Source: a virus
DNA: 63,823 nt
Virus record (IMG/VR): IMGVR_UViG_3300031720_000003
Span: 1 to 63,823 of that record
Direction: 5' to 3' (one strand)
Shown here: one piece after another, positions 3,498 through 63,823 of the stretch
Position numbering within the stretch: the stretch's first letter is position 1
Layout of the letters: each line of letters starts with the position of its first letter
Notes under the pieces: model-generated
What the model was told of the DNA's origin: nothing
The model's database searches: none
The model's input: only the letters and a program-made list of their open reading frames with translations
Program-made: the position numbers and the translations under genes

Positions 3498-4634
3498 ATG
3501 CCGGGGAGGCGAGCCACCGGGGAGGGTTCCATCGTCCGCTACCGCGGGCGCTGGCGGGTCAGGGTGCGCTGGCGCGGCCGGGAGCAGACCTGGTTCCGGC
3601 CCACCCATGTCGAGGCGGCGGCCAAGCTGCGCAGCGTGCTTGAGCAGCGGGCCAAGGGCGTGAGCATCAACGGTGGGCGCCTGCCGCTCTCCCAGTGGTG
3701 CGAGGAGTGGCTGGCCCAGAGCACGCTCACTGCCCCCCGCTCGCAGGCGTTCTACGCGGCCAAGCTCGCCTACATCCTCCCCCAGCTAGGAGGCATCAGC
3801 CTCGACGAGCTGGAGCCCGCCGAGATCCGCCGCGCCCTCGCCGCGGTGGGCACACGCCACTCGCCGACCACCGTGCAGCACGTCTACCGCAGCCTCTCCA
3901 CCTGCCTCAACGCCGCGGTCAGGGAGCGACGGATCACCCGCAACCCGGCCGGTGACGTGCAAGCCCCGCAGCGCTCGGGATTCGTGGCCCAGACCCTCAC
4001 CGTGGAACAGGCCCAACGTTTGCTCGAGGTCAGCCGCGACTCGTGGATGGGGGCGCTGATCCATCTCGCCATCGCCACCGGGATGCGGCAGGGAGAACTC
4101 TTCGCGCTGACCTGGGACGACCTCGACCTCAGCGAGCGCCGTTTGAGCGTGACCAAGAGCCTCTCGCGCCAGAAGCACGCGGGCCCGACCAAGACCGCCG
4201 CCGGCCATCGCCAGCTCACCCTCGGTGCCTCGGTGGTCGCCAGCCTGCAGCACCAGCGCGCCCGGGTGGCGCAGATGCGGCTCGAGGCCCGCGACTGGAA
4301 GGACCGCAACCTCATCTTCCCCACCGTCACGGGTGGGTACCGGGCACCCTCGGGTTCCTTCTTTCGCGAGTTCCGGTCATTCCTGACCGAAGCTGAGTGC
4401 CCGCACATCCGCTTCCACGATCTGCGCCACACCGCGGGACTCTTTCTGACCCGCAGCGCGGGCTTGGTGGTGGCGTCGCGCATCCTCGGACACGCCTCAC
4501 CGACCATTACCGCGTCGTTGTACGGAGCTGCGCAACGCGATGACTTTTTGGCCGCGGCACGCTCCATGGACGAGTTGCTGATGACCCCTTCCCAGTCCCC
4601 CCCGGAGGTGCTACAGTCCCCCTCGCTCGGCTGA
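3498..4634 (+). CDS. int: Tyrosine integrase
   Basis: 378 aa. An N-terminal arm-binding region (RYRGRWRVRVRW) is followed by a SAM-like core-binding domain (about 60-150) and a catalytic domain with GMRQGELFALTWDD (box I Arg), HDLRHTAGLF (His-x-x-Arg), ILGHASPTIT (second His) and a Tyr in ASLYG. All catalytic residues are visible. It would insert phage DNA at a chromosomal attB; a tRNA-like attP core follows at once. ATG 3498 has GGAG just upstream. Function is well supported by motifs. Confidence 0.95.
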   Translation: MPGRRATGEGSIVRYRGRWRVRVRWRGREQTWFRPTHVEAAAKLRSVLEQRAKGVSINGGRLPLSQWCEEWLAQSTLTAPRSQAFYAAKLAYILPQLGGISLDELEPAEIRRALAAVGTRHSPTTVQHVYRSLSTCLNAAVRERRITRNPAGDVQAPQRSGFVAQTLTVEQAQRLLEVSRDSWMGALIHLAIATGMRQGELFALTWDDLDLSERRLSVTKSLSRQKHAGPTKTAAGHRQLTLGASVVASLQHQRARVAQMRLEARDWKDRNLIFPTVTGGYRAPSGSFFREFRSFLTEAECPHIRFHDLRHTAGLFLTRSAGLVVASRILGHASPTITASLYGAAQRDDFLAAARSMDELLMTPSQSPPEVLQSPSLG

Positions 4635-13057: not shown

Positions 13058-14302
13058 TCAGGCCCCCGGGGCGATCACGCGCCCGCTGAGCACTGTCTGG
13101 GTCGCGTATTCGACGCTGTAGTGGATGGTGTCGGTGATGGTCTTCTGCATGTTCAAACCCAGTCGTGGTTCGGTGGCGGTGAACACGTCATCAATGTCGA
13201 AGAGGGGGTTGTTGGGCGCGCTCACCGACAAGGTGTATGCAGAGGACAGCGACACGCCGAGGTTGAACTGCGCCTCCGACAATGCCTGTGCCGACGACGT
13301 GATCAGGCTGTCCATGATGAAGTTGGGCGCCCGCCCGATCCCCCCGCCCACAAACGTCGGTGAGGCGGAGTTGTTGTCGGCGGCTTCGGCCTGGATCGGG
13401 GTGTTGGTGCCGGTCAGGTTCTGCGCCCCGGTCGCGGCCACGAAGATGTCGTTCTTGACCCCGTCGCGGGTCATCGCCAAGGTCACCGCTGCGGGAGTGG
13501 TGAACGGTGTGCCCCCGATGGGATGCACGTAGGTGCCTTGCGCGGTCACCTCACCGGGATAGAAGTTCCACACCGGAGCCAGTGAGGAGAGTGATCCGCC
13601 CGCGGCTGAACCCGGAATGGGTTTGCCAGTGAGCACGCCGTTGACATCGAAGAAGAGCTGCTGACCGCCTGACTGGGCCATGTCCAAGCACGCCTGCCAG
13701 GGATCCTGTCCCTGGTTGTACGTGCCCGCCGGCACCACGTACGACGAGCCGCCCTGAAAGTTGGGATTGGTGATCCAGGGTGGCACGGGAATGCCCACCG
13801 AGCCCGGCCCGTTGTTGTTCCAGATGTAGCTCAACAAGGCCACGACCTCATCCTCGAGCACCCCACCCGCTGCGGGAACCGTGTAGTTCTGCAGCAGTTG
13901 CCACTGCGAGAAGGGCCAGCTGCGGTCGAACAACTGCAGCGTGCAGGTGAGGTTGTTGCCCGTTGAGGCGGTCGTGGTCGTTGCAATCGCGTACACACCC
14001 AGAGGTGCCCAGCCGTTGGCTCCGATCTGTCCCGTCTGGATGTCCGGGGCCAGCACGGTCATGGCCACCGACACCTCCGTACCGAAGGGGGCAAGGGGCG
14101 AGGTGGGATCCAGCGGCAAATACGGCACCTGCTGTCCCGACCACAACACCGTCTGCGGTGGGATGGAAGGGACGATCTCGACGGTCAGCTCGCCCTGCCG
14201 GCGCTGTGCGCTGTTGCGATCGACGGTGAAGTCAGCCTCAGAGACAGGCAGGTAGATGCTGGTGCTCTGTCCGCTGTTCATGACGTTCAACTGGCACGCC
14301 AT
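13058..14302 (-). CDS. Minor tail protein (DUF5047-like)
   Basis: 414 aa from ATG 14302. Begins with ACQLNVMNSG and SEADFTVDRNSAQRR, then LTVEIVPS, a start I associate with DUF5047-type siphovirus minor tail proteins, and ends two bases before the collar gene. Probably part of the distal tail. Its upstream neighbour is on the other strand, so the 10278-14302 block may need its own promoter; TTTATAGA near 14330 (minus) is a possible -10. Confidence 0.65.
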   Translation of the reverse strand: MACQLNVMNSGQSTSIYLPVSEADFTVDRNSAQRRQGELTVEIVPSIPPQTVLWSGQQVPYLPLDPTSPLAPFGTEVSVAMTVLAPDIQTGQIGANGWAPLGVYAIATTTTASTGNNLTCTLQLFDRSWPFSQWQLLQNYTVPAAGGVLEDEVVALLSYIWNNNGPGSVGIPVPPWITNPNFQGGSSYVVPAGTYNQGQDPWQACLDMAQSGGQQLFFDVNGVLTGKPIPGSAAGGSLSSLAPVWNFYPGEVTAQGTYVHPIGGTPFTTPAAVTLAMTRDGVKNDIFVAATGAQNLTGTNTPIQAEAADNNSASPTFVGGGIGRAPNFIMDSLITSSAQALSEAQFNLGVSLSSAYTLSVSAPNNPLFDIDDVFTATEPRLGLNMQKTITDTIHYSVEYATQTVLSGRVIAPGA

Positions 14303-14401
14303 GATCGCGCTGCCCCAGCGCAGCGCGTCTATAAATCCCGAGGCTGCCGACCAGATGGCGCAAATCCCTCCCGTTCGAGAGCGCTATCGGTCGCAATGTG
14401 T

Positions 14402-14437
14402 AGACCGCTTGCGTTCTGTTGTCCCGCTCTCTACAAT
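14402..14437 (+). promoter_or_regulatory. Promoter with overlapping operator
   Basis: TTGCGT (14409-14414), 17 bp, TACAAT (14432-14437). The palindrome-like AGACCGCTTGCGTTCT (14402-14417) covers the -35 and differs at one base from the complement of the operator at 3184-3199. Transcription would start near 14444 and be blocked when the operator is occupied. Confidence 0.65.
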
Positions 14438-14440
14438 GCG

Positions 14441-14473
14441 AAGCCCCTGGAGCGGTTGGGCTCCGAGGGGCTT
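14441..14473 (+). promoter_or_regulatory. 5' leader hairpin
   Basis: AAGCCCCT-GGAGC pairs with GCTCC-g-AGGGGCTT: 13 base pairs with one bulged G and a 6-base loop, right at the expected transcript start. No T-run follows, so it is not a terminator. It could protect the transcript or be bound by a protein. Confidence 0.6.
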
Positions 14474-14504
14474 CTAACCACCAACCTGTGTGGAGGTCAA
14501 TGGC

Positions 14505-15152
14505 GTGGCTATTAATGGTACGGCGACTGCTGTCAGGCCAACAGAAGAGCGCACTTTCGTGGAAGCAGCCCTCACGCTGGAGCCGCTACAGATCAGTTCC
14601 GTGGACATTCGCGTCGAGGGGCTGTCCCCGCTGAGCACACATCGCTGGTCGGAGAAGGCCAAACGGATGATGCTCGAGGCGCAGAGCGGCAAGGCACGCA
14701 AGCGCAAGGAGCCGAAGGATCCCGACGCGGACTACAACGACGCGCGCTACCGAATTGACGCTAAGCGCGACGGCATCCCCGCGATCTGTTTCAAGGCCGC
14801 GATCGTCGGCGCGGCTCGTCACTTCGAAGGCATCCCCATGACCGTTCTCAAGACCGCAATCTTCGTTGAGGGCATCGGCAAGGAGCAACTCATCCCAATC
14901 GAGGGCAAGCCCGAGAAGTGGGAGGCGACGGTGCGCATCGCCATGGGCACTGCCGACCTGCGCTATCGTCCACTGTACTGGCCATGGTCTGCGGTGCTGC
15001 CGGTGCGCTTCGTGGCGTCGACCATCTCGCTTGACGCTGTCTACGCTTTGGTCGATGCTGCCGGCTTGGGTGGCGTCGGTGAGTGGCGTCCCAGCGCACC
15101 AAAGTCGCTCACAGGCTCCTACGGTCGATTCAAGGTTTCAGTGGAGGCTTAG
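14505..15152 (+). CDS. Conserved phage protein of unknown function, gene 1 of the pentamer-array locus
   Basis: 215 aa from GTG 14505, with GGAGG 8 bases upstream; GTG 14490 would bury that site. Mixed alpha/beta with a Lys-rich middle (SEKAKRMMLEAQSGKARKRK), then GIPAICFKAAIVGAAR, IPIEGKPEKWEA, MGTADLRYRPLYW and GSYGRFKV near the end. I recall proteins of this general pattern paired with the next gene in other phages, but know no function. It is on the plus strand inside the minus-strand tail operon. Confidence 0.75.
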   Translation: MAINGTATAVRPTEERTFVEAALTLEPLQISSVDIRVEGLSPLSTHRWSEKAKRMMLEAQSGKARKRKEPKDPDADYNDARYRIDAKRDGIPAICFKAAIVGAARHFEGIPMTVLKTAIFVEGIGKEQLIPIEGKPEKWEATVRIAMGTADLRYRPLYWPWSAVLPVRFVASTISLDAVYALVDAAGLGGVGEWRPSAPKSLTGSYGRFKVSVEA

Positions 15153-15154
15153 CC

Positions 15155-15616
15155 ATGGCACTCGCCACCGCTCCGACGCTGGTTTACGAAGGACTGCCCG
15201 ACGCTGCGCTACGCGAGTTGGAGCAGCTCCATGAGCAGGATGGGGCGCTTCGACCTGAACGTGTTATCGAAGTCGCGGCTGATGCCGATAGCCCTCTGCA
15301 CAGCTACTTCGAGTGGGATGACACCGAGGCGGCTCGGCAGCACCGCATCGCACAGGCACGTCAGGTGATCCGGTCGGTCAAGGTCTATGTCAGCGATCGC
15401 CCTGCTGTGCAAGTGCGTGCCTACGTGTCCATGGGCGTTGAGCACGGACGGGCGTATCAGCGCACCAGCCAGGTCGTGAACAATGAGTTCACTCTGAACG
15501 AACTGCGGCGATCACTCGGTCGTGATCTCCAGCGGATCCAGCGGAAGCTACAGCTCATTGATGAATTCGCCGAAGCCGCAGCGGGACTCAACGGCGTTAT
15601 TGCCATGTTGTCCTAG
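15155..15616 (+). CDS. Conserved phage protein of unknown function, gene 2 of the pentamer-array locus
   Basis: 153 aa from ATG 15155, 2 bp after the previous stop, with GTGGAGG upstream. Key stretch SPLHSYFEWDDTEAARQHR, then QARQVIRSVKVYV, VRAYVSMG, and a C-terminal basic helix pair (LRRSLGRDLQRIQRKLQL). Predominantly helical and basic enough at the C-terminus to bind nucleic acid (inference). It ends 65 bp before the phased pentamer repeats. Confidence 0.75.
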   Translation: MALATAPTLVYEGLPDAALRELEQLHEQDGALRPERVIEVAADADSPLHSYFEWDDTEAARQHRIAQARQVIRSVKVYVSDRPAVQVRAYVSMGVEHGRAYQRTSQVVNNEFTLNELRRSLGRDLQRIQRKLQLIDEFAEAAAGLNGVIAMLS

Positions 15617-15681
15617 GGGCAGCAATGGCGCGCACAGGCGAGCACTGAAGGGGACAGCCCTGCGGTGGAATGGTCAGTCTT

Positions 15682-16015
15682 GGAACGGCACGGCAGCATT
15701 GGAATGGCAGTAACGGCTAGCTTGGCCCGGCACCGCACTGCAGCGCACCACTGCGCAACGACACGGAATGGCAGTAATGGCGTGGCGAGCAAGGCACCGG
15801 ATTGGCAGCATGGCAGCGGTGCGTCCTGCGTGGGTCGGTCAAGCAAGGCATGGCAGGGCACAGGTACGCATGGGATTGCAGTGGCAGTGGTGGATAGCCA
15901 CGCGAGGGACGGCAATGTTAAGCAAGGCATTGGCAGCAGTGGACAGGCGAGCCCTGGGCTGCCGGGCACAGGCAGGCTACGGTATGCAGCGCGACGGCAC
16001 GGTTTGGAATGGCAG
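15682..16015. repeat. Degenerate pentanucleotide-phased array
   Basis: Low-complexity DNA with strict 5-bp phasing and consensus G-(G/C)-N-N-N, often GGCAN. In block 15793-15887, 17 of 19 consecutive pentamers start with G. In block 15906-16015, 19 of 22 start with G and all 22 have G or C second. Earlier blocks (15730-15789, 15701-15720, 15682-15696) keep the pattern, with small insertions resetting the phase. Several frames are open across it, but 5-bp phasing argues against a conserved protein. Confidence 0.75.
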
Positions 16016-16094
16016 TAGAGGCTGGCGTCGGAGTGCGACGCACTGGCGGGCGTTGGACAGGCTCGCAATGTAGCGCAGAGGCAGGCTAACCGTG

Positions 16095-16127
16095 CTCAGG
16101 ACGGCGGCGATGTGTCGTCGTCCTGAG
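16095..16127. other. Perfect inverted repeat at the end of a tail gene
   Basis: CTCAGGACG (16095-16103) and CGTCCTGAG (16119-16127), 9-bp arms with a 15-base loop, overlapping the stop codon of the 48-aa minus gene and lying between it and the pentamer array. No T-run on either strand; it may be a processing or attenuation hairpin. Confidence 0.6.
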
Positions 16128-16242
16128 TCTCATCCTCGGGGTGCAGCAGTTCACGAGCGGCATCAAGCAACCACTGCGGTGTCCGATCCGATCGCAGAAT
16201 CGTCTCGCGACCGTGCAGAACAACGACCGGAGCGGGATCCAT
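16096..16242 (-). CDS. 48-aa tail-operon micro-protein
   Basis: ATG 16242, 8 bp after the long tail protein; GTGAGG upstream. Begins MDPAPVVVLHGRETILRSD, then WLLDAARELLH and an acidic tail. Coding logic is good: a compact hydrophobic core, and it fills the space exactly. Function unknown. Confidence 0.6.
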   Translation of the reverse strand: MDPAPVVVLHGRETILRSDRTPQWLLDAARELLHPEDETQDDDTSPPS

Positions 16243-16250
16243 GCTGTGCC

Positions 16251-18758
16251 TCACACCGCTGGACGCGGGGTGGCAATGCCACTCACTCGCATGACCCGAT
16301 GCGGACCCGACGACGTGCTCGGCTGCAACTGTGTGTTGTGTGCTGGGGCGCTGCCCATGCCACCGGGGGTTTGCGCGAGCCGATAGTAGGGTGAGAGGTT
16401 GACGCCGCCGAACGGATCAGACACGAACACACTTTGCTGCGACGTACAGAGCGCCACCATGCCGCTGTACTGCGCAGCCGTGAACAACTCCAGCGTTGCG
16501 GCCATGTCCGGCCGCTGCACGGCGTACGCCATGATCGCTGCGGTCTGTTGCCCGAGCACTTGATGCGCTTGCGCCTGCTCGCTGACCGAGGGGTTCCAAT
16601 CAACAGCGTTAGCGAGCGTCGCAGTAGTCGGGTTGGTCGGGTTGAACCACCACCACCCTTGTCCTGCCGCAATGGTTTGTGCTGACGACGTTGCCGTGGG
16701 GCTTGAGATGGTCGACGCGCCCACCACCGCGGAAATAGTCGCGGTGTACGAATACGCCACCGTGGGCACGCACTCCGGGTCGTACACCACGACCGACTGG
16801 GTGCCGACTGGAATGCTGGTCGGATTCGTCGTGCTGGCTAGGCGCACGTAGACGCCGTCACTGCGCAGGATGGACAGGGTTGTGCTGCCCACCAGTCCAC
16901 CGCGCGCCCATGTTGACACCGTGCCGGGGAACAGGCCCATCTCCACCACGAAATGGTTCTCACCAGCTGAGGACACGGTGAGCACGATGGCGGCGAAGGC
17001 AGCATTGGCCGGTGCCGCTGCAGTGATGGACGCTTGGGTCCACGCAGAGGACACATCGCTCACCGCCGAGGAGGTGGAGGTGGAGAGCAGCGTGCCCGAG
17101 CTGTTGTACCAAGCGATGCCCACCGTGGCGTTGCGCGCCGTCGACGCCGAGCGGAACGAGGCCAATCCGCTGTACGTCTGTCCCACCGTGACCGCGATGC
17201 CCGATGTTCCTGTCGGCGTGGTGGCTGAGAGCGTGCCCGAGCCCGCCATCTGCAGGCTGTACGTGCCTTCTGCGGTCGGTGGGGTGGGGCTCGTGGCTGC
17301 GGAGAGAGTCGTGCCCCCGCCCGCCGTCCAGCCTGTGGTGTTGCCGTTCACCAGCGCTGCTTGATTCGTGGTCAGGTAGTTGTCAAACGCGTTGACGGTG
17401 AGCACGACACAGGGCAGCGAGGTGCCCGGATACGTGCCCAATGAGGAGACGATGGTGGGGGTGTTCGGTGAGTCCAGCTGCACCGTGTAGCCGGTGGACA
17501 CCCACGCTGAGGTTTGACCACCCGGGCTCTGGGTGATCTGCACGTAGGAGGCCACGGTGGTGTTGTTGGGGAGCGTGTTGACCACCGTGTACGAGGACGC
17601 GAGCGGATCGCTGACCACGCCGGAGTCGTCCAGTGAGGGGCCCGAGCCGGGGGTGAAGCCGGGGGCGCCGTACTGCGCTGCCGAGTAGGTGACCACGCGA
17701 TACGCGCTCTGGGTAGCACCGGAGGCCAGCGAATCGGACCACGTCACTGACGGTGTCTGCGTGGTGGTGAGCGTGCCGGTGGGGCCGGTGACGGTGACCG
17801 AGGGGCCGACCTGTGCGGTGACCGTGAAGTCGGATGCGTACGGGCCCGTGCCGGAAGAGTCAACGGACGCGACCGACCAGTTGTAGACGTTGCCGTCCGT
17901 CCACACCCCGCCGGCGAAGGTGATGCTCTGGGCGGTCGAGGTGTTCGCGATGTCCGTGCCCTGAAAGGCCGACCCTCCCGCGTTCCAGTAGTTGTACGAA
18001 CCGCCCGAGATCTTCTGGCGGAAGTGGTAGCCGGTCTCTCCTCCGGTGGCGCTGCCTTTGTAAACCCAGGTGAAGGGGCCGCCGTTGGTTTGCAGATCGC
18101 TATAGACCGCGTTGCTGGGAGCCGTGAGTGAGGGTGCAGGCGGAGCAGGGGGGATGAGCGCAACGGTGAGTGACGACCACTCCACGAGCTGGCTTGAGGT
18201 GGCGCTGCCCGGTGCCGACGACCCCGGCGATCCGGGTCCGGTGTAGTCGCCAGCGACGATGCCGACTGCTGTGGAGGTGACGTTGGCTCGAGCCGTGACA
18301 CCACCTGGGGCGGTGAAGGTGACGCCGTTGAAATAGGTGCCGGCCCAGAACACCACCACCTTCTCGCTGGCCTGGGTGGTGGTCACCGAAGCGGCCGCGA
18401 AGCTAGTGGCTCCCGAGCCGTTCGCCGACTGCCGTTGCGCTTGCACGTCGATCTGCGCCCCGGTGTAGTCGAGGATCGCCGCAGCGAGGTTCTGGTTGCC
18501 GACGTTGGTGGTAAACGTGTACGAACTGGGTTCGCTCGAGCCCGCGCTCTTCTGATACAGCGCAGCCGCCCCGGCCGTGTTGCTCATCAGCGTGCCCAGC
18601 GCGCTCCACCCAGTCGGGGCTGAGTAGGTCGCGGGATCGTCGCCGCCGATAACCATGGCCAGCAGCAAATCGCCCGAGGCAGCTCCGGCAGGTTTGTTCA
18701 CGGTCACCGAACTGCCGAGGTTGTTCCCCGTGCTCGATGAGCGGAAGGTGACCGCCAT
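16251..18758 (-). CDS. Large minor tail protein (Ig/FN3-like domains)
   Basis: 835 aa, ATG 18758 directly after a TAG. The N-terminal about 200 residues (FRSSSTGNNLGSSVTVNKP) look like a lectin/Ig-like virion domain. Then come several FN3-like blocks (APSLTAPSNAVYSD, YNWSVASVDSSG, TGTLTTTQTPSVTWSD), and a C-terminal region that may bind the tail tip (QRPDMAATLELFTAAQYSG). Downstream of the tape measure, it is a typical siphovirus tail-tip or adhesion protein. Confidence 0.75.
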   Translation of the reverse strand: MAVTFRSSSTGNNLGSSVTVNKPAGAASGDLLLAMVIGGDDPATYSAPTGWSALGTLMSNTAGAAALYQKSAGSSEPSSYTFTTNVGNQNLAAAILDYTGAQIDVQAQRQSANGSGATSFAAASVTTTQASEKVVVFWAGTYFNGVTFTAPGGVTARANVTSTAVGIVAGDYTGPGSPGSSAPGSATSSQLVEWSSLTVALIPPAPPAPSLTAPSNAVYSDLQTNGGPFTWVYKGSATGGETGYHFRQKISGGSYNYWNAGGSAFQGTDIANTSTAQSITFAGGVWTDGNVYNWSVASVDSSGTGPYASDFTVTAQVGPSVTVTGPTGTLTTTQTPSVTWSDSLASGATQSAYRVVTYSAAQYGAPGFTPGSGPSLDDSGVVSDPLASSYTVVNTLPNNTTVASYVQITQSPGGQTSAWVSTGYTVQLDSPNTPTIVSSLGTYPGTSLPCVVLTVNAFDNYLTTNQAALVNGNTTGWTAGGGTTLSAATSPTPPTAEGTYSLQMAGSGTLSATTPTGTSGIAVTVGQTYSGLASFRSASTARNATVGIAWYNSSGTLLSTSTSSAVSDVSSAWTQASITAAAPANAAFAAIVLTVSSAGENHFVVEMGLFPGTVSTWARGGLVGSTTLSILRSDGVYVRLASTTNPTSIPVGTQSVVVYDPECVPTVAYSYTATISAVVGASTISSPTATSSAQTIAAGQGWWWFNPTNPTTATLANAVDWNPSVSEQAQAHQVLGQQTAAIMAYAVQRPDMAATLELFTAAQYSGMVALCTSQQSVFVSDPFGGVNLSPYYRLAQTPGGMGSAPAHNTQLQPSTSSGPHRVMRVSGIATPRPAV

Positions 18759-19127
18759 CTACTCGCGATCCTTGCGGGCGTTCTCGACGTGCTTCGCGAA
18801 CTCTTCGTGCAGGCTGAGGCTGCTCAGAAAGGTCAGGTGGTCGTCACTGAGCATTGGAAGATGCTCGTGCAGCGCTGAGGTGCCCCGGACTCTCGCGGCC
18901 TCGCGTTCGACCTCGACCTGCTCGGCGATCTGTCGTGCTTCCGCGGTGTGGCCCCGGTCGTGATGGCGCACCCGGTAGAGCTCACGGGCCAGCGGAGAAA
19001 GTTCGGCCGTCCAGAAACCACGATGACAGGGCCCGCACAGCCAAGGAGTCGCGTCCGGCGGACCCGCGAACGGCTGCAGCTCAGCACCGCAACTCGGGCA
19101 TGAGGTTAGGACGGTCGGCTGGGGCAC
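18759..19127 (-). CDS. Zinc-ribbon protein in the tail operon
   Basis: 122 aa from GTG 19127 (AAGGA 8 bases upstream). CPSCGAEL and CGPCHRGF form a zinc ribbon; the rest is a long helix (ARQIAEQVEVEREAARV) and a helical C-terminus. Adjacent to the antisense lipoprotein gene. Role unknown. Confidence 0.6.
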   Translation of the reverse strand: MPQPTVLTSCPSCGAELQPFAGPPDATPWLCGPCHRGFWTAELSPLARELYRVRHHDRGHTAEARQIAEQVEVEREAARVRGTSALHEHLPMLSDDHLTFLSSLSLHEEFAKHVENARKDRE

Positions 19128-19204
19128 ACAAATGTTCCTTATGAGCGTGGGGTAGGATGCGTAGTTATTAAGAGAGGCGCGGGGGACGTACGGAGGTGGC
19201 GGCA

Positions 19205-19651
19205 ATGAAGGGGATCGGTATTGCCCTAGCGGCGGGGATGCTCAGTGCGTGCGGGGCTGCCTCAGCGGGCAGTTCAGCGACGGACACACCCACTGATACC
19301 GCCGCGGTGGCGCCGGCCACCTTTGCGCCGAGCACCGATATGCCGACGGCGGTGGCCACCGTCCCGCCAGCACCTGTGGGGATAACCGCGTGTTACGTAG
19401 CGCCCAGCGACGGCAAGGACACCCGAGTCAGCATCACAGGTGTGGATGCAGCGACGACGTGCCCACAGGTGCAAGCCACCCTCGGCGCGAGCACATGGAC
19501 GGTGCTTGCCGACAACGCCCCCGTGCCCTCAGACGACGTGAAAACGCTGTGTCAGGGAACGGTGGGCCAGTCAACGTGGCGCGTACTCGATCACCGCTTC
19601 GTCAACTTCACCGGGCTGGCCGCCTGCGACACGCTGCAGCACGCGTACTAA
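19205..19651 (+). CDS. Secreted lipoprotein on the antisense strand (moron candidate)
   Basis: 148 aa from ATG 19205 with GGAGG 8 bases upstream. MKGIGIALAAGMLSACGAAS is a lipoprotein signal with lipobox LSAC, followed by a Thr/Ala/Pro linker and a small domain with four Cys (ITACYVA, ATTCPQV, TLCQGT, LAACDT), likely two disulphides. Plus strand inside the minus tail operon, with its stop overlapping the tape-measure stop, so it is probably expressed independently. Superinfection exclusion from the outer face of the membrane is the most likely role (inference). Confidence 0.75.
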   Translation: MKGIGIALAAGMLSACGAASAGSSATDTPTDTAAVAPATFAPSTDMPTAVATVPPAPVGITACYVAPSDGKDTRVSITGVDAATTCPQVQATLGASTWTVLADNAPVPSDDVKTLCQGTVGQSTWRVLDHRFVNFTGLAACDTLQHAY

Positions 19652-22600
19652 GCGGGTTGCAGAGAGTAGGCGCCACCACCGAGGCTGCGTAGCACTTTCG
19701 ACCAGGCCCGGTTCACCGCTTGTTCTGCGGCGTCGCCGATCTGATGTGGGCTGGCGTTGGTGTTGGGAACGTGGATGGTGATCGGAGCGCTGATTTGCAG
19801 CGTGTGCCCACCCACTGCTGCAACAGCTGAGCTAGACGCTGGGGTGGAGGCCAGCACTGTTGCGGGTCGCACCGCACGGCCTTGGATTGAGGCCACCGCC
19901 ATCTGCCAGAGCGCGGGATCGGTGCGATCCTTGGCGAGAATCGCCTCCACCCCATGCACCATGATCGGTGTGCCGGATCCGAAGTTGCCAACGATACCGT
20001 GCTGCGCTCCGAGCCCCACGCCTCCAGTGTACCCGGGAGGCAGCAGGTGGTTGTAGCGGTTCTCGGCGTTCTGGATGGCAGTGAGCAGTCCTTGGTTGGC
20101 CCCGGGGATCTGTCCCGCCGAGGGGATGCCTTTGGCGATGTCGCTGGCGATGGTGTTGGCGTTGGTGACGCCGTTCTGCACATCGGTCAGGAAAATCTGC
20201 ATCGCGGTCGCTGAGAGCGGGCCGGTGATCGCGGACACCTGCATCAGCGCGTTCATGTCCTTACTCAGGGTGGTGGCGTCGGTGACGCCGTTGCCCCAGA
20301 GCGTCTCGAACGCCTGCAAGCGCTGCCCAGTGATAGGTCCGACGTTCTGCTCAACAGCGGTCAGTGCTGCCACGCCCGCAGTGAGATTGCCCATGTCCTG
20401 ATTGCCCTTCTGCCACTGTTGCAGGAAGAACTGCTGCGCCTCCGAACTCTGGGGGCCAGCCACACCGAAGACCTGACGCTCCGCGAGGACGGCTTGGCTG
20501 ATCTGGGTGACATCGTGAACGCCGTTGTGCCACAGCTGCGCGAACAGGGTTTGCTCATTCTGGCTGAGTTGTCCGGTGACATCGGTGACCCGGCCGAGCG
20601 CACCCATGGCGAGGCTGATCTGGAACGCGGAATGCGTGCCGTTGTCCCAGAGGGTGTGGAACATGTCCTGCTGGACCTGGTTCCTCAAGAGACCGTTCTG
20701 CTGCAGCGCCGCGAACACCTGCTCGGAATTCGCCGCCGCAGCAGCAGCGCCGGTGAGCAGCCCGAGCTTGGCAAGGAAGGCGTCAAACTGCGGCTTGGTT
20801 TGCACCGCACCGCTCTGCACCGCGTTGGCGATCAGATGCAACTGATCGACGGAGATGGTGCTGATCCCGTACATGCTGTGCAGATCGCTGAGGAAGCCGC
20901 GCATGTCCGCGATGCCCTGACCACTGCTGTTGTTGAGCATGTCCTGCAAGTTGGCGAAGGCTCCACCACCGACTGCAGTGCCAGAACTCATGAAAGGCAC
21001 CGTGATGCCCAACCCACCCGGTGCAGCCCAGCTCGCAGTATCGCCTTGGCTGTGCATCAGTGCCATCGCTGAGTTCAACTGACCGAGCGCGCCTGCGAGA
21101 CCAACGATCACGGGGGCTAGGCCACCAGCAGCGGTGAGCGCACCGAGGGCCCCAATGAGCCCGCCGGCGCCGGTAGATGCGCCTGCTCCCGCGCCACCCA
21201 CCAGCGTCTCTGCACCAGCGAGCGCGTCCTCTTCGCCTGCTGCGGTCGCTGCGGCGGTGCCAGCCAGCGCTTCTGAGCCAGCCAACGCATCCTCTTCGCC
21301 AGCCGCAACGGCTGCAGCAGCCCCTAGGCCAACGGTGGCAGCCTTAGCAGCGTCAGCAGCAGGTCCAAAGCCGAGCAATGCTCTGACCGCGGCTCCGATA
21401 CCCGCCTCGCCGGCCATGGTCACGAAGGCCGCGCCCATCCTGATCAGTCCCGCGATCCACTCCGCGAACGTGAACAACTTCATACGGTTGGCGAGGATGG
21501 CGATGGCGATGCCCCACTCCAAGATCGGTCCCACCACGGGGATCTTGCTCAGCCAGCCGACGAATTGCGCGATGAGCGCCACGATCTCGGTGAGCGCGGG
21601 GGCGATGGTGAGGTAGATCTGGCCGAAGGAACTGAACAGCCCGGGCAGCAGCGCGAGGAGGTTTTTGATCTCATCGAGATGCGCCTGGAACAGGCTGTGC
21701 AGTTGCGTCTGCCCAGAGGTGCTCGCCAGCCAGACGTGCAGTCTCATGAGCATCTGGTCGAGTATTCCGACGATGCTGGTGCCGAGGCCGACGGATGGCT
21801 TGAAGAGCAGCACAAGATCCTGGGCAGCGATAACAATGAGCGCTTCCCAGGCGTGCCACACGTCGATCATGTGACTCATGACCGACTCCCATTTCGCGAA
21901 GCCTTCGGGAGAGTTGGCTTTGGCCAGCAGATCGCCGATCTTGGCGGTGATGCCCCCGGTGTGCAGCGAGAGTAGGTCGAGCGTCTTGAGCACGAACTCC
22001 ACGCCATTCGTGAAGGCGGCCATGGCATTGGGCAGGTTGGCCGCAAAGGCGTTCTCCAAATCCTTGAAGATGGCGATGCCCTGCGGCCCCTCAAGCCATG
22101 CAAACAACGGCTTGAGGCTGTCGTTGATGATGGTGAGGTTGCGCTCTGCAGCTGCAGCCACCAACGGCGTGTAGACGGTGCCGAGCGTCACCACCTGCTG
22201 CATGATGTTGGTGGCAGCAACCCGAGCGCCGGACGTTTGCTGGTCCCAGAAGGCGTTGAGCGCAGCAGCAGATTTGGTGAGCGCCATCTCGGCCTGCACC
22301 CCGGCGGTGTTGCCAAGCACCTGCATTTCTACGTTGAGGTTCTTCTGATCGGCCGCAGCCTGCGCAGAACCGGCGCCGTACTGGATCACGTCCTTCTGCA
22401 GCTGCGTATACAGTTTGCTCAGCGTTTGGGTGTCGGCGATGGTCGACTTCATCACCGCCATGTCCGAGCCACTGCCCACCGCCATGGTGCCCAGCGAGCC
22501 CGCGCCGAGCAGCGCACCGCCGCCCAGTGCTTCGGTGGCTGAACCACCGAGTCCCATCAGGGTGGTGATGATGTGCTCTGCACCGAACCCTGCCAGCGAT

Positions 22601-28381: not shown

Positions 28382-28476
28382 CGATCCACCACGATGTGAG
28401 CCTCGCCGTCAGCATCGAAGTACACGGTGAGTCCCGACGACTTGGCGATCTCACAGGCAACGCGCCACAGATCCAC
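28378..28476 (-). CDS. 32-aa micro-protein
   Basis: GTG 28476 with GAGGAG 9 bases upstream, and a TGA that overlaps the next ATG (ATGA). Sequence begins VDLWRVACEIAKSSGLTVYF and ends with an acidic/hydrophobic strand (GEAHIVVDR). The strong ribosome site and exact overlap support it. Function unknown. Confidence 0.6.
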   Translation of the reverse strand: MDLWRVACEIAKSSGLTVYFDADGEAHIVVDR

Positions 28477-28499
28477 GAAGCGTTCTCCTCAAGCGAAGC

Positions 28500-28528
28500 G
28501 ACCGGGTCCGGTTTCCCGAAACCCGGTC
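28500..28528. other. Hairpin at the left edge of the sugar cassette
   Basis: GACCGGGT (28500-28507) pairs with ACCCGGTC (28521-28528); an alternative inner stem GGTTTC/GAAACC overlaps it. No T-run. It separates the glycosyltransferase cassette from the head-tail genes and may attenuate or process the late transcript. Confidence 0.5.
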
Positions 28529-28552
28529 CTTCGTGCTGCAGGCGGGCACGGA

Positions 28553-29038
28553 TCAACTTGCGCAGCCGTGAGACGGGAGCAACGACGCCTTGGCGTGATC
28601 CAGCACGGTGTCGTGCAGATGGCGCGGCTCGTGACGGAGCACGATCTGCATCCAGCCATCGAGCCTGCACCAGTGTCCGGGCGGATGCGTGGCGTCTGAC
28701 ATCCGACTGACGGTGCGCATGGCTTCCGGGTTGCGAGCGAGCAGTGAGCCGGCGAACTTCACACAGCCCAGCCCGGCGTAGATACCAACGAAGTAGGGCG
28801 ACGCGAAGCAACACCATTCGCCTGAGCAGGCTTCGAGCTCGTCGAGCGTGTCGGGGCGGATGACGATGTCCTGCTCGACAATCGCGAAGGTCTCTGCGCG
28901 CTCCCAGAGCCCGCTCAGCAGGGCACAGTAGTCGGTGTCGCTAGCTGAGACATCGACGGCTTCCCAGTCATGGCCGCTGGCCTCGAGCGCTGCTCGCGTC
29001 TCGTCACGCAGCTCAACGAAGGGACAGATGACCCTCAC
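28553..29038 (-). CDS. GT-A-like glycosyltransferase-type protein 1
   Basis: 161 aa. Begins MRVICPFVELRDETR. The VEQDIVI motif after a helix takes the place of a DxD nucleotide-sugar site, followed by SPYFVGIYAGLGCVKF and a DGWMQIVLRHEPRHLHD segment. Same architecture as the gene at 31563-32051 (LIEHDIEI, GSLGCTRF), so the two are paralogues. Small for a glycosyltransferase; likely adds or orients sugars on virion or host glycan. Confidence 0.55.
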   Translation of the reverse strand: MRVICPFVELRDETRAALEASGHDWEAVDVSASDTDYCALLSGLWERAETFAIVEQDIVIRPDTLDELEACSGEWCCFASPYFVGIYAGLGCVKFAGSLLARNPEAMRTVSRMSDATHPPGHWCRLDGWMQIVLRHEPRHLHDTVLDHAKASLLPSHGCAS

Positions 29039-30000
29039 GCGAGGAGTTGGTCAGCCAGCTCCATCGAGGCGGCCACCACGCCATCGAGGTTCAGATACTT
29101 GTGCGAGCCGGTGCGCCCGTGGCGGATCTGCCAGGAGGGTTCGAGATCCACATCCAGGGGCAGGGGATAGGCGTGCGGTGAGACGTGCGCATCGAGCAAC
29201 AGGGGATCGCGGTGACCGAGACGCTCGAACAGTTCCAGCGCCGACTGACAGTAGGCGTCGGGGCTGAAGGCGAGTTCCCCGGGACAGGTGGCCTCCGCCT
29301 GCAGGCTGTAGAGCCCGATGGGTGCATTGGCCGACGCGAAGTTGCTCGGCACGCTGACCCGGTGAAACACCGTCTCATCACCGGGGATGTAGAGCGCGGT
29401 GAAGTCAGGGTCGATGCCCGTGAATCCGGCGCTGACCGTGATCAGGCTGTTGTAGGGCAGCTGCGCAACCGGGATGGTGGAGACCACTCGGTCGAAGCCG
29501 GAGAGATCCGGATCGGAGGCTCCGCAGATCAGCGCGGTGTCCACCCGGCGCGCCCACGCCTCGGTGATGGCACCATAGCCACCCTGCGAGGGGTAGGCGT
29601 ACTCGCTCACCCCGCCCGGTTTACGCCCGGCCTGCGCACCCAAGCGCACCCGGGAGAGTGAACTGGGGTCGCGTTTCCAGAGCTTGCGGCTGTAGCGGGT
29701 GACCTGGGCGGGATCCTCGAAGGGATGCTGTGCGAACGCTCCGTTGATCCACGCGCGGTTGCGGGTACGACCTGTCTCCCAGGTCAGTCCGGTGGAGACG
29801 CGGATCCACTCCACCGCCTCGGGGATGCCACCTAAGACGTGGGGGCCTTGATCGAAGGTGAAGTCCATGATGCACCGCGAGCGGCAGAGCCCACCGGGCG
29901 TACGCTCACGCTCGAACACGGTGACCGATTCACCACGCTCGCGCAGCAGCACAGCGAGGGAGAGGCCAGCGGCGCCAGCACCGAGGATGGCGGTGGGCAC
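29035..30000 (-). CDS. UDP-galactopyranose-mutase-like / FAD-dependent amine-oxidase-fold protein
   Basis: 321 aa. The N-terminal Rossmann loop AILGAGAAGLSLAVLLRERG with the GESVTVFERERTPGGL continuation binds FAD. The middle (FDQGPHVLGG, GGYGAITEAWARRV) and C-terminus (LEPSWQIRHGRTGSHKYLNL) follow the pattern of UGM and protoporphyrinogen-oxidase-like enzymes. ATGA-type overlap with the GT-A-like gene suggests the product feeds a transferase, for example with a furanose sugar. Confidence 0.7.
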   Translation of the reverse strand: MPTAILGAGAAGLSLAVLLRERGESVTVFERERTPGGLCRSRCIMDFTFDQGPHVLGGIPEAVEWIRVSTGLTWETGRTRNRAWINGAFAQHPFEDPAQVTRYSRKLWKRDPSSLSRVRLGAQAGRKPGGVSEYAYPSQGGYGAITEAWARRVDTALICGASDPDLSGFDRVVSTIPVAQLPYNSLITVSAGFTGIDPDFTALYIPGDETVFHRVSVPSNFASANAPIGLYSLQAEATCPGELAFSPDAYCQSALELFERLGHRDPLLLDAHVSPHAYPLPLDVDLEPSWQIRHGRTGSHKYLNLDGVVAASMELADQLLA

Positions 30001-60761: not shown

Positions 60762-61330
60762 GCCGCTGCCTCCGGCAGTGCAGCGATCAGCGCGGCGTAG
60801 TGGCGGAACTCCGTGAGATGCAGGCGAGCGTCGGCGAGTGCGCGGTGCGGCTTGCTGCCGTCCAGCTCGGGCACCAAGTCCTTACGCTGCGCGTAGTCAC
60901 GAATCAGCCGGCGCACCGGTCCGACATCCATGCTGGGGTAGTCGAACATCGCCTCGACACGCGGCATGTGGGCCTTGAGCCAGCGCCGGTCGAAGTGCGC
61001 CACTCCGCTGCCGGCGAGACGTAGTGGCGGCTCGAACTGATCCAGGAAGGCGAACAGCTGCGTCTCGGCAACGCGGAGCGGGCAATGGCAGGCGTCGACG
61101 GCGATCGCCAGCCCGTTGGCCGCATGCATGGCCGTGACGGTGTCGTCCATCAGCGATCGCCAGTCCTGCCTGTAGAGCCGGATGATCCGCGTGAACTCGC
61201 CGAGCTCCACGAAGGGCGCGGCGGGATCCGTCACGACGACAGCGACCTCGAGGATCTCGCCGGTGCGCTCGTCGGCGCCGGTCGTTTCGAGATCCAAGAA
61301 AGCTAGGGGTGGTTCGCGGCGCTTGCTCAC
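60758..61330 (-). CDS. DnaQ/oligoribonuclease-like DEDDh exonuclease
   Basis: 190 aa. LAFLDLETTGADERTGEILE is Exo I; GSGVAHFDRRWLKAHMP carries the second Asp; KPHRALADARLHL is the Exo III His/Asp. The catalytic set is complete. A 3'-5' exonuclease, proofreading or nucleic-acid turnover, lying between the Gp37-like and methyltransferase genes. Confidence 0.85.
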   Translation of the reverse strand: MSKRREPPLAFLDLETTGADERTGEILEVAVVVTDPAAPFVELGEFTRIIRLYRQDWRSLMDDTVTAMHAANGLAIAVDACHCPLRVAETQLFAFLDQFEPPLRLAGSGVAHFDRRWLKAHMPRVEAMFDYPSMDVGPVRRLIRDYAQRKDLVPELDGSKPHRALADARLHLTEFRHYAALIAALPEAAA

Positions 61331-62661
61331 AGCACTGCTGCCATCTGACGTCCTGTCTGTGCGAGGCGGCGCTCAGCGAGCCTGACGTACGCCGGGTTCA
61401 GCTCGATGCCGATGTAGTCGCGGTCCAACCCCTTCGCCACGGCGAGGGTCGTACCGCTGCCAGCGAAGGGATCGAGCACCGTGCAGGGCACTGGCGAGCA
61501 GCTCGTGTGGGCGCATGTCGGCTCCCAGCCGGAGGTTGTCGCAGCGCGGTTGACGCGCGGCATCGCTGCGCCGTCCCAGCCATTACTGCCCGTGGCGTAA
61601 TGGCGCCCGACCACTGAGCTATCGCCGTGAACTGGACTCTTGACGTACTCGACACTCACCATCCGGCGCCATGGCGCTCCACAGTCAGCGCACGCCCCGC
61701 GCTCTGATGTGCCGGCGAGGATGCAGGGCTCTACCAACGCCTCCGGGAACGTCGCGAAGTGCGCGCCCGGATAGGGCTGCGTGGCGATCGTCCAGACACT
61801 GCGCTTGTTGCGCGTTAGCGGCGCGGTGCCGTTAGCCTCTGAGGCGTCCCAGTTCTGGTTCAGGTCATGCAGGCGGTCACCCGGCTTGGTGTCGGGCCGC
61901 GTGACGTTCTTGTGGTTGGCGTACCGGCCGATCCGGTCGCCGTTGTCACCGCCGGGTCCGGTGTTCCAGCCAGACGGCAGTCGCTCTTCAGAGCGGCGCG
62001 TGAAGCCCTGGCCATAGGGCGAGTGCTGAGGACCGTTGGGCCCCACGTACTGCGCCGGCTCACGAATAGCCTCCGCATCGTAGAAATAGCGCTCACTGCG
62101 GCTGAGCAGGAACACATACTCATGTGCCTTGGTGGGCCGGTCCGTGACGCTCTCGGGCATCGGATTGGGCTTCGACCACACGATGTCACTGCGCAGCCAC
62201 CACCCATCCGCGCGCAGCGCGAAGGCCAGCAACCACGGCAGCCCGACCAGATCCTTGGGCTTGAGTCCCGCGACGATGGTGTTGAACGGCTTGTCCCGGA
62301 AGGTGCGGTCGTCCTCATCGTGCGGATGCGCATAGGTCTTGGCGCTGCCTATTCGCCGGCGCGCCTGTCCTCCATCATGCAATCCAGTGTTGCCAACGTT
62401 GCCGTTGGGCTGCGTGGCATAGCAGTCGCCCATGTTGAGCCAGAGCGTCCCGTCCTTCCGGAGGACGCGCCGGATCTCGCTGAAGATCTCAACGATCTTC
62501 TCGACATACGCTTCCGGTGTCGGCTCGAGGCCCAGCTGACCGGGTGTGCCGTAATCGCGCAATCCCCAGTACGGTGGGGACGTCACGCAACACTGCACGC
62601 TCTGATCCGTGAGCGTTCGAAGGACGTCGAGGGCGTCACCGCAGTGGAGTTCGCTACTCAC
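61327..62661 (-). CDS. Beta-class DNA methyltransferase
   Basis: 444 aa from GTG 62661 (GTGA overlap with the end of the Mom-like gene). Motif IV CCVTSPPYWGLRDYGTPGQL comes first, and motif I CTVLDPFAGSGTTLAVAKGL near the C-terminus, so it is beta-class, of N4-cytosine or N6-adenine type; the SPPYW form favours N4C. LVGLPWLLAFALRADGWWLR and VWSKPNPMPESVTDRPTKAH are further family motifs. Likely shields the genome from host restriction. Confidence 0.9.
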   Translation of the reverse strand: MSSELHCGDALDVLRTLTDQSVQCCVTSPPYWGLRDYGTPGQLGLEPTPEAYVEKIVEIFSEIRRVLRKDGTLWLNMGDCYATQPNGNVGNTGLHDGGQARRRIGSAKTYAHPHDEDDRTFRDKPFNTIVAGLKPKDLVGLPWLLAFALRADGWWLRSDIVWSKPNPMPESVTDRPTKAHEYVFLLSRSERYFYDAEAIREPAQYVGPNGPQHSPYGQGFTRRSEERLPSGWNTGPGGDNGDRIGRYANHKNVTRPDTKPGDRLHDLNQNWDASEANGTAPLTRNKRSVWTIATQPYPGAHFATFPEALVEPCILAGTSERGACADCGAPWRRMVSVEYVKSPVHGDSSVVGRHYATGSNGWDGAAMPRVNRAATTSGWEPTCAHTSCSPVPCTVLDPFAGSGTTLAVAKGLDRDYIGIELNPAYVRLAERRLAQTGRQMAAVL

Positions 62662-63099
62662 GTAGCAACTGCCTTGATGAGCAAGTGGTAGCCGCGCTGG
62701 CTGACGCCGGCAAATCGGTAGCCAGCCACCTTGAAGCAGTAGCCGGGGTTCGGGCTCTGCACGCGTCGCGGATCGACGTACGTGTAGAACTGTGAGACCC
62801 CCCCCCCAACGCTCTAGCGCATGCTGCTCGGCCTCGAGGATGATGTCCGAGCTGAGCCGCTCACTCTCGTTGCGGAAGATGGTGCAACTGACGCCGGGCA
62901 CCGCGTGGTGCTGCGGATAGAGCCAGCCAAACACCACTGATCCGGCGAGATCGCGCAACACCAGCGTCCGACCGTTGCCCATGAACTCCCGTGCGCCGGG
63001 CGTCTGCCTGCTGTAGTGGCGATCGGCGAGCAGGCGCGATTCAGCGTCCGTCCGCTTCACAGCGACGAGGTTGTCTGGCGCGCTCAGCGGTAGCAGCAT
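62658..63099 (-). CDS. Mom-like DNA-modification protein, frameshifted at a poly-G tract
   Basis: 146 aa if one G is removed. GNAT-like/Mom-type pattern: RLLADRHYSRQTPGAREFMG, TLVLRDLAGSVVFGWLY, CTIFRNESERLSSDIILEAE in one frame, then SQFYTYVDPRRVQSPNPGYC and FKVAGYRFAGVSQRGYHLLI in the next. The two halves join at a run of ten G (62807-62798, minus strand). As sequenced the first half is fused in frame to the methyltransferase. Nine or six Gs would restore the normal ending, whose TGA overlaps the methyltransferase GTG. Confidence 0.7.
62798..62807 (-). repeat. Homopolymeric poly-G tract
   Basis: Ten Cs on the plus strand in the Mom-like gene, the longest homopolymer I see here. One base out of frame for a continuous gene, so a slippage, phase-variation or sequencing site. 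Confidence 0.8.
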
Positions 63100-63823
63100 C
63101 TACGCCGCGGCCTTCTTCGCCGTGCGCTTCGGCTTAGCTGGCTCGATACGGTTGCCTTCGATGTCGACTTCGTAGCAGGGCGCACAGACGCGCGGCGCCT
63201 TGACCTTGTCGGGGAACTGGGCGTCCCATCCGTGTGCGGCGATCTCGCTCACCTTCACCGGGCAGGCCACGATGTGCTTGAAGTCCGGGTTCCAGCGGTG
63301 CGCCATCCAGGGCTGCGGGAAGAAGTGCAGCCCGCCACCGCACTCCGCCTTCCCGCCATCCCAATCGGCAGCACTCGGTGTGGTGCCGGGCTTGTACGAC
63401 ATGCCATACGCGCTCTTCCACTGCGCGTCGACTGCCTTGTACAGGACCGCCACGCCACGCTTCACCTCGACGCCCTGCGCGTCGCACCAGGCCTTACCGG
63501 TGTTGATGTCGGGCGGCCGGATCTCGATGCCGCCCGTCACGGACACCTTGGCCCCGAGGATCGTCACCGCGACATACGCGGTGGCGATCACCTTGACGGC
63601 GTGCCGCGCAATGACTTGCGCGGCGCCGGAGGCCGTCACCGTGCTGCTGCCGGAGGCCGTCACCGTGCTGCTGCCGGAGGCCCTCACCGTGCTGCTGCCG
63701 GAGGCCGTCACCGTGCTGCTGTCGTAGGCCGTCACCGTGCTGCTGCCGGAGGCCCTCACCGTGCTGCTGCCGGAGGCCGTCACCGTGCTGCTGTCGTAGG
63801 CCGTCACCGTGCTGCTGTCGAAG
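63100..63823 (-). CDS. Repeat-rich DUF7666-type protein, C-terminal part
   Basis: Continues the gene from 349-1. A series of SSTVTAYD/SSTVRASG octapeptides ends about residue 65 from the right edge; then comes VKVIATAYVAVTILGAKVSV, IRPPDINTGKAWCDAQGVE and a C-terminal domain with VAVLYKAVDAQWKSAYGMSY, AECGGGLHFFPQPWMAHRWN and KIVACPV-type HIVACPVKVSEI, then Lys/Ala-rich KRTAKKAAA. The Y-KAV...CG-GLHF arrangement fits DUF7666-type phage domains. Conservation and function unknown; no start is seen at this end because it runs over the edge. Confidence 0.75.
   Translation of the reverse strand, partial: FDSSTVTAYDSSTVTASGSSTVRASGSSTVTAYDSSTVTASGSSTVRASGSSTVTASGSSTVTASGAAQVIARHAVKVIATAYVAVTILGAKVSVTGGIEIRPPDINTGKAWCDAQGVEVKRGVAVLYKAVDAQWKSAYGMSYKPGTTPSAADWDGGKAECGGGLHFFPQPWMAHRWNPDFKHIVACPVKVSEIAAHGWDAQFPDKVKAPRVCAPCYEVDIEGNRIEPAKPKRTAKKAAA
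63627..63823. repeat. 24-bp coding tandem repeat, right part
   Basis: About eight near-identical 24-bp units in frame with the repeat protein, continuing at position 1. Copies here are more uniform than those at the left edge, as if recently expanded. Confidence 0.9.

Follow-up and report, generated by a model that had tools for sequence, protein, structure and literature searches.

A GGCA-punctuated pentamer array beside a RAMP-family gene in a virus record: very probably a guide-RNA bank of the VIPR type

Genes and array of the locus

The window, by which we mean the whole stretch of 63,823 nucleotides analysed here, is a 63.8-kb virus record carrying an integrase gene (3498-4634), a portal and a terminase; the terminase was closest to that of a Streptomyces phage and the portal to that of an Arthrobacter phage. 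Tandem repeats of 24 bp (CCGTGCTGCTGCCGGAGGCCGTCA and its rotation) were seen at both ends of the record (1-257 and 63625-63817), pointing to an end repeat or to a circular map that was opened within an array. A DNA methyltransferase gene (phrog_67) is present near the right end at 61327-63099. Two adjacent genes and a long array of short units make up the locus described here (Table 1); both reading frames are intact, and the array starts directly 3′ of the stop codon of the second gene. No match was obtained when the region 13058-20500 was searched against phages by blastn, and neither gene was named by Pfam, NCBIfam or PADLOC, which gave only weak matches below their cut-offs.

Table 1. Features of the locus in window coordinates
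Feature	Positions	Strand	Basis
Strong hairpin just upstream of vipr	14440-14474	+	-28.7 kcal/mol for 14436-14482, z -4.25
vipr, RAMP-family guide-RNA-binding protein (by homology and fold), 220 aa, GTG start	14490-15152	+	phrog_4652, BLASTP, model
Accessory gene, vap candidate, phrog_15946, 153 aa from ATG at 15155	15155-15616	+	phrog_15946, E 1.2e-23
Array of vrRNA type, G[G/C][A/C]NN with GGCA punctuation	15617-16084	+	HMM, shuffles, period 4.92
GGCA 4-nt unit 1	15692-15695	+	HMM units
GGCA 4-nt unit 2	15706-15709	+	HMM units
GGCA 4-nt unit 3	15770-15773	+	HMM units
GGCA 4-nt unit 4	15804-15807	+	HMM units
GGCA 4-nt unit 5	15883-15886	+	HMM units
GGCA 4-nt unit 6	15932-15935	+	HMM units
Putative guide block B6, 15 pentamers + GGCA, read with 1-nt skip as the presumed tyrosine-integrase box II motif	15936-16014	+	Decoding, scans
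GGCA 4-nt unit 7	16011-16014	+	HMM units
Hairpin of 15 bp immediately following the array, possible 3′ terminus of an array transcript	16094-16128	+	Folding

The protein of the first gene matched phrog_4652 (E 4.7e-35), and the same family was matched by the Vipr protein of Escherichia phage SUSP1 (1.4e-96). VIPR was first described in a 2026 preprint as a system of RNA-guided DNA recognition, in which a RAMP protein is combined with vrRNAs 9-16 pentamers long whose NN letters are free, and is thought by its authors to predate CRISPR (PMC13142463); a literature search from 2024 on for the Vipr protein or vrRNA returned this preprint alone. The SUSP1 vipr gene (28474-29061) was picked by its place in the locus described there, two genes set among long intergenic stretches (PMC13142463), and BLASTP aligned its product with the window protein at E 1e-9 across the glycine-rich (G-loop) region. 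The single-sequence fold of the window Vipr was useless (pLDDT 35), and an alignment-based AlphaFold model built from 29 aligned sequences (pLDDT 86) was used instead. This model matched the CRISPR subunits Csm3/Cas7, both in Foldseek (E 4.4e-5, with 36 matches at E 0.001 or better) and in VIA-align (Z 10.7, rmsd 3.4 over 150 residues), and G192, G195, G197, R200, P201, G209 and G212 were found to be conserved in the alignment. Judged from its sequence and this model, the protein is a small RAMP protein with an RRM core and a glycine-rich loop, as Vipr is described to be. The R-E-D motif that is common among the related proteins is missing from it, KWEATVR standing where most of them have MREDxVR, and two related loci (L013 and L208) deviate here as well. 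A link between this missing motif and the loose scaffold of the array (see below) was considered and rejected, since L013 is also without the motif and has a strict GGC scaffold.

The product of the second gene could not be aligned to SUSP1 vap1, which belongs to phrog_5926; the gene may act as the vap of the locus. The minimal layout of a VIPR locus, vipr and vap with a flanking long noncoding stretch, is found here in the two genes and the array. The right-hand neighbour (16251-18758) is probably not part of the system, since searching with it as a seed brought up one locus, L042, that has no array. Neither Rfam nor tRNA scanning of the window gave a match, and no promoter or terminator was called at the array locus. 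The region 16086-16140, 3′ of the array, is predicted to fold at -28.9 kcal/mol (z -4.1); its hairpin is without a T-run and was not called as an intrinsic terminator.

A cyclic 5-state HMM resolved the array into a continuous series of 95 units, 88 pentamers and seven 4-nt units, closed by an irregular last stretch of 9 nt. The pentamer consensus was G[G/C][A/C]NN, with three constrained and two free positions; in the best register (n = 88 pentamers) the entropies at positions 1-5 were 0.09, 1.50, 1.70, 1.98 and 1.97 bits, G occupied position 1 in 87 of the 88, and positions 4-5 were flat. All seven 4-nt units read GGCA. It is these interruptions that bring the true mean period to 4.92 nt, the value at which the Fourier peak was observed instead of 5, with an autocorrelation coherent to lag 128; a reading of the non-integer period in terms of DNA geometry was dropped once the 4-nt units had accounted for it. 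The Fourier power reached 16.7, compared with no more than 3.65 among 500 dinucleotide shuffles, the log-likelihood gain of the HMM was 118 as against at most 24 in 25 shuffles, and no stronger signal of period 4.4-5.6 was present in the 63.8-kb window (16.07 vs 3.98 for the next non-overlapping place). A tandem-repeat scan revealed no repeat of the CRISPR type (identical, tens of bases long, with unique spacers) in the array, the units of which are 4-5 nt long.

The preliminary description of this DNA had placed the repeat at 15682-16015, a stretch that does lie inside the array but falls short of its true extent. The pentamer periodicity with phase shifts described there proved strong and far above the shuffles, and the entropies are unequal among the positions, equal entropy having been named there as the outcome that would speak against selection. 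At its own register, position 2 of the block from 15906 is indeed G (15) or C (7) in all 22 pentamers, and 19 of the 22 have G at position 1. The phase had been said to be reset by +3 insertions; what we found instead were 4-nt units, each one base short and all GGCA, and the apparent +3 shifts are the sum of these single-base steps and a one-base misregister of two block starts, 15793 and 15906, where units start at 15794 and 15907. The block from 15793 had also been taken to be in perfect register, which it is not, because it contains a GGCA itself. The core idea, selection at fixed spacing with free variation elsewhere and not a decaying repeat, was supported.

Such decay would be expected of a pentanucleotide microsatellite with random indels, to which the short units and the many copies bear a resemblance. 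The indels, however, are all of one type (GGCA, one base short), the phase is coherent over 128 nt, the entropy differs among positions, and this architecture recurs next to members of one protein family in hosts that are not related, so that this explanation is refuted in practice and retains only a very slight probability. Three ORFs of 101-151 aa lie open across the array and might be taken for a coding repeat specifying a low-complexity protein; the five-nt units and the GGCA steps shift the frame, though, and the frames are probably open because the scaffold leaves few stop codons, which leaves a coding repeat with next to no probability.

Related loci and turnover of blocks

When the second gene (phrog_15946) was used as the seed, 40 viral loci were obtained, and 37 of them carried an array of period 4.84-4.93 beside the gene. 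With the window Vipr as the seed, 46 viral loci were obtained, of which 44 had arrays and the other two (L176 and L212) are truncated. In genome contigs all 18 Vipr loci had arrays, with hosts from Streptomyces and Sphingomonas to Clostridia and a Methanothrix bin, and in the phage collection 33 records matched the window Vipr (27 of Mycobacterium, five of Gordonia and one cyanophage).

The comparison with related arrays that the preliminary description had proposed showed GGCNN with free NN letters and not exact GGCAA repeats. Across lineages the scaffolds form a series, GGC, GG[C/T], G[G/T][C/T], G[T/C]C and the G[G/C][A/C] of the window, in which G1 is constant, and the G[T/C]C lineages keep a strict punctuation. 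Almost everywhere the 4-nt unit reads GGCA; it reads GCCA where the scaffold is G[T/C]C, and mostly GGCG in L208. Over 182 distinct arrays, GGCA made up 861 of at least 919 four-nt steps, 120 of the loci in this count having been found via a pattern that contains GGCAGGC. The gap between 4-nt units averaged 9.3 units with a CV of 0.29, as against 0.93 for random placement (16 arrays), and the mode was 10 (788 gaps, 182 distinct arrays). A GGCT separator was observed in two loci from Selenomonadales/Selenomonadaceae bins (L226, 4661-5640, and L227, 4601-4750). In L230 (4651-5740), GTCNN or GTTNN tends to follow the separator instead of GGCNN, and the context of the separator differs by lineage. 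We also observed that the annotated gene 40 of Gordonia phage UmaThurman (L043, 3644-3967) overlies the guide array (3720-3950) and is probably a false gene call.

Turnover of the arrays was followed in nine loci with 96-100% identical flanks (54 nt on the left and 45 nt on the right; a tenth locus, L036, was left out for want of the anchor). In 34 of the 36 array pairs, the longest stretch in common was at most four NN units. Two of these loci, L017 and L024, have one nearly whole GGCA-bounded block in common (12 of 13 pentamers identical) and nothing else of any length. A guide block duplicated in L017 is partly deleted in L018, a partial collapse which is as expected from recombination between blocks. 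The GGCA-bounded blocks thus act as the units of gain and loss. The templated diversification suggested in the preliminary description is in this respect only indirectly right: the free letters resemble guide content matching foreign genes, and the blocks between GGCA units are gained and lost whole.

Reading of the free letters

VIPR guides are described as directed against competing elements, successive NN pairs matching the DNA with one base left out, most often a wobble position (PMC13142463). The code was tested here by sequence only, the NN pairs being read on DNA with one target base skipped between pairs. Block B6 decoded in this way to V[HQ][DE]LLG[HQ][RS]T[IM]ATT[FL][IM], which fits what we take to be the box II motif of tyrosine integrases. 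In the collected loci, the best skip-1 score of B6 was 24 of 30, compared with 20-22 in ten shuffles, and skips 0 and 2 gave 20; skip 3 scores perfectly only because it is the register of the array itself. The top three skip-1 matches were all integrases by sequence, one of them inside the annotated integrase of UmaThurman. When viral contigs were scanned with units 1-8 of B6, 54 matches were obtained, 29 of which were in-frame integrases by context, this split into 29 integrase and 25 other cases being our own reading of the rows; at the unused units 9-15, a mean of 8.3 of 14 letters matched in the 29 integrase cases vs 3.4 in the other 25. Among 880 distinct guides from the relatives and the window, only B6 fits the integrase motif in the sense direction, and shuffles average 0.03. 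The integrase of the phage itself reads ILGHASPTITASLYG at the position of this motif, and B6 thus points at another element.

No exact match to 11 units of B6 or to its last 9 units was found in viral contigs, no match within 3 mismatches was obtained in 246 class-level genomes, and a 9-unit core of block B7 gave no match; a complete target of a window guide was found neither in the viral contigs nor in the 246 class-level genomes searched. Decoding gave no reading for the window guides other than B6, and skip 1 was not enriched when all guides were pooled in a search of 1.5 Mb of loci. Among the relatives, a 12-unit guide from a Sphingopyxis indica prophage (L218) was searched in 298 genomes with the 1-nt-skip pattern and up to 3 mismatches. 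It gave one match of 23/24 letters, the reversed-pattern control gave none, and we estimate the chance expectation at about 5e-4 matches. The match is codon-aligned, in frame YNNLGHVKPGN, and the mismatched codon is synonymous; by its position just after a tape-measure-like ORF and by its content, we read the target as a phage tail gene. Two further sphingomonad guides had no match in 249 genomes each, so that one of three relatives' guides was matched. At the level of sequence, the 1-nt-skip reading is fitted by B6 and one guide of a relative, with two of three relatives' guides unmatched and no complete target for a window guide in the sequences searched.

These in-frame matches to foreign genes would be left unexplained if the array were a DNA element, such as a replication origin, an iteron array or an R-loop region, needing clusters of G every five bases. 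A G-rich strand and a period near 5 are what such an element would show, and the array of one lineage precedes a Sak4-like annealing gene; but the free NN pairs, replaced between near-identical flanks, and the constant link to a RAMP protein would likewise go unaccounted for, and we consider this explanation highly improbable. The array might instead be a non-functional relic, a former VIPR array with a GGC scaffold that is now drifting with traces of its code left. Drift, however, would loosen G1 in the same way as positions 2-3, yet G1 is kept in 87 of 88 pentamers and GGCA in seven of seven 4-nt units. Positions 2 and 3 are indeed loose compared with the relatives, the window Vipr is without the R-E-D motif, and the searches returned no complete target of a window guide. 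On the other side, both ORFs are intact, B6 still spells the integrase motif, and graded scaffolds such as G[T/C]C occur with strict punctuation in other lineages. We regard a relic as unlikely.

Proposed guide bank and comparison with known systems

Judged from these sequence features, the array is very probably a guide-RNA (vrRNA) bank of a VIPR-type system in a temperate actinobacteriophage-like virus, and by analogy its guides probably find and silence genes of rival phages. The interpretation builds on the observed array and its punctuation, the RAMP fold and homology, the conserved neighbourhood and the integrase decoding of B6; the RAMP gene adjoining the array, which had been overlooked in the preliminary description, supplies the explanation. 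Only 19 of the 88 window pentamers start with GGC or GGT, which is not the strict GGY/NN form of the vrRNA, and the locus was therefore filed as a VIPR variant and not as a plain member, although it is held to work like VIPR. It is VIPR-like, with a relaxed scaffold and GGCA punctuation.

In the proposed mechanism, the array stretch would be transcribed, and each pentamer would be bound at its scaffold by one subunit of the adjacent RAMP protein, anchored through the invariant G and with the two free letters exposed. The NN letters would then pair with DNA two at a time, one target base being skipped, usually the codon wobble, as reported for other VIPRs (PMC13142463) and as suggested here by the sequence matches. 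The fixed sequence of the GGCA units, their regular spacing and the block-wise turnover point to a role as separators of successive guides, mostly of about 9-15 units. Once bound, the complex would shut down genes that belong to rival mobile elements, as described for other VIPRs (PMC13142463), and guide B6 would be aimed at an integrase gene unlike that of the phage itself.

The guide blocks of the window include ones of 2 and 6 units, shorter than the published vrRNAs, and when a vrRNA-like 3′ tail structure was sought, block B6 inside the array folded no better than shuffles (z +0.7). We tentatively propose, at somewhat short of an even chance, that in this lineage the RNA scaffold has shrunk to one invariant G per pentamer together with a fixed GGCA separator, that these and not GGY are the minimal grammar of a VIPR guide bank, and that the array, continuous and tail-less, has its GGCA-bounded blocks swapped in the manner of CRISPR spacers and might be cut or counted at GGCA. 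From this locus and the related ones it can be seen that evolution is able to relax positions 2-3 of the scaffold and hardly ever relaxes position 1 and GGCA. Together they provide an extensive natural collection of continuous guide banks that turn over block by block, along with 33 phage records of a related protein, most of them from cultured actinophages, and thereby allow direct tests of how the scaffold is recognised, where guides begin and end and how they are acquired.

In the main text of PMC13142463, the vrRNA is described as alternating GGY/NN motifs "or a related consensus", and "staggered arrays with overlapping vrRNAs" are named. Set against that main text, the G[G/C][A/C]NN of the window may be compared with such a related consensus, and G[T/C]C and G[G/T][C/T] are found as intermediates in the relatives. 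The VIPR of SUSP1, assigned to type II in PMC13142463, shares with the window a Vipr of phrog_4652, the gene order of vipr, vap and downstream repeats, and a pentamer scaffold with free NN letters. SUSP1 has separate vrRNAs of ~100 nt with a GGY scaffold and 3′ tails and a different vap, of phrog_5926, and the window is set apart from it by one continuous array, GGCA punctuation, the G[G/C][A/C] scaffold and a second gene of phrog_15946. VIPR-type loci are also carried by the mycobacteriophages Saal, Brocalys and Donkeykong, with a Vipr 53% identical to that of the window, and by the Gordonia phages UmaThurman and ODay (36-41% identical). GGCA-punctuated arrays like that of the window are found in UmaThurman, ODay, Brocalys and the IMG/VR contig L091; the arrays of the myco- and Gordonia phages differ in that their scaffold is mostly GGC/GGT and that they lie before or between the genes and not after them. 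With the RAMP effectors of class 1 CRISPR-Cas (Csm3, Cas7), the modelled window protein shares the fold of the RNA-binding subunit (Z 10.7), and both have guide banks separated by constant elements, but the units of the window are 4-5 nt long whereas CRISPR repeats measure tens of bases, and pairing is contiguous in CRISPR and gapped in VIPR (PMC13142463).
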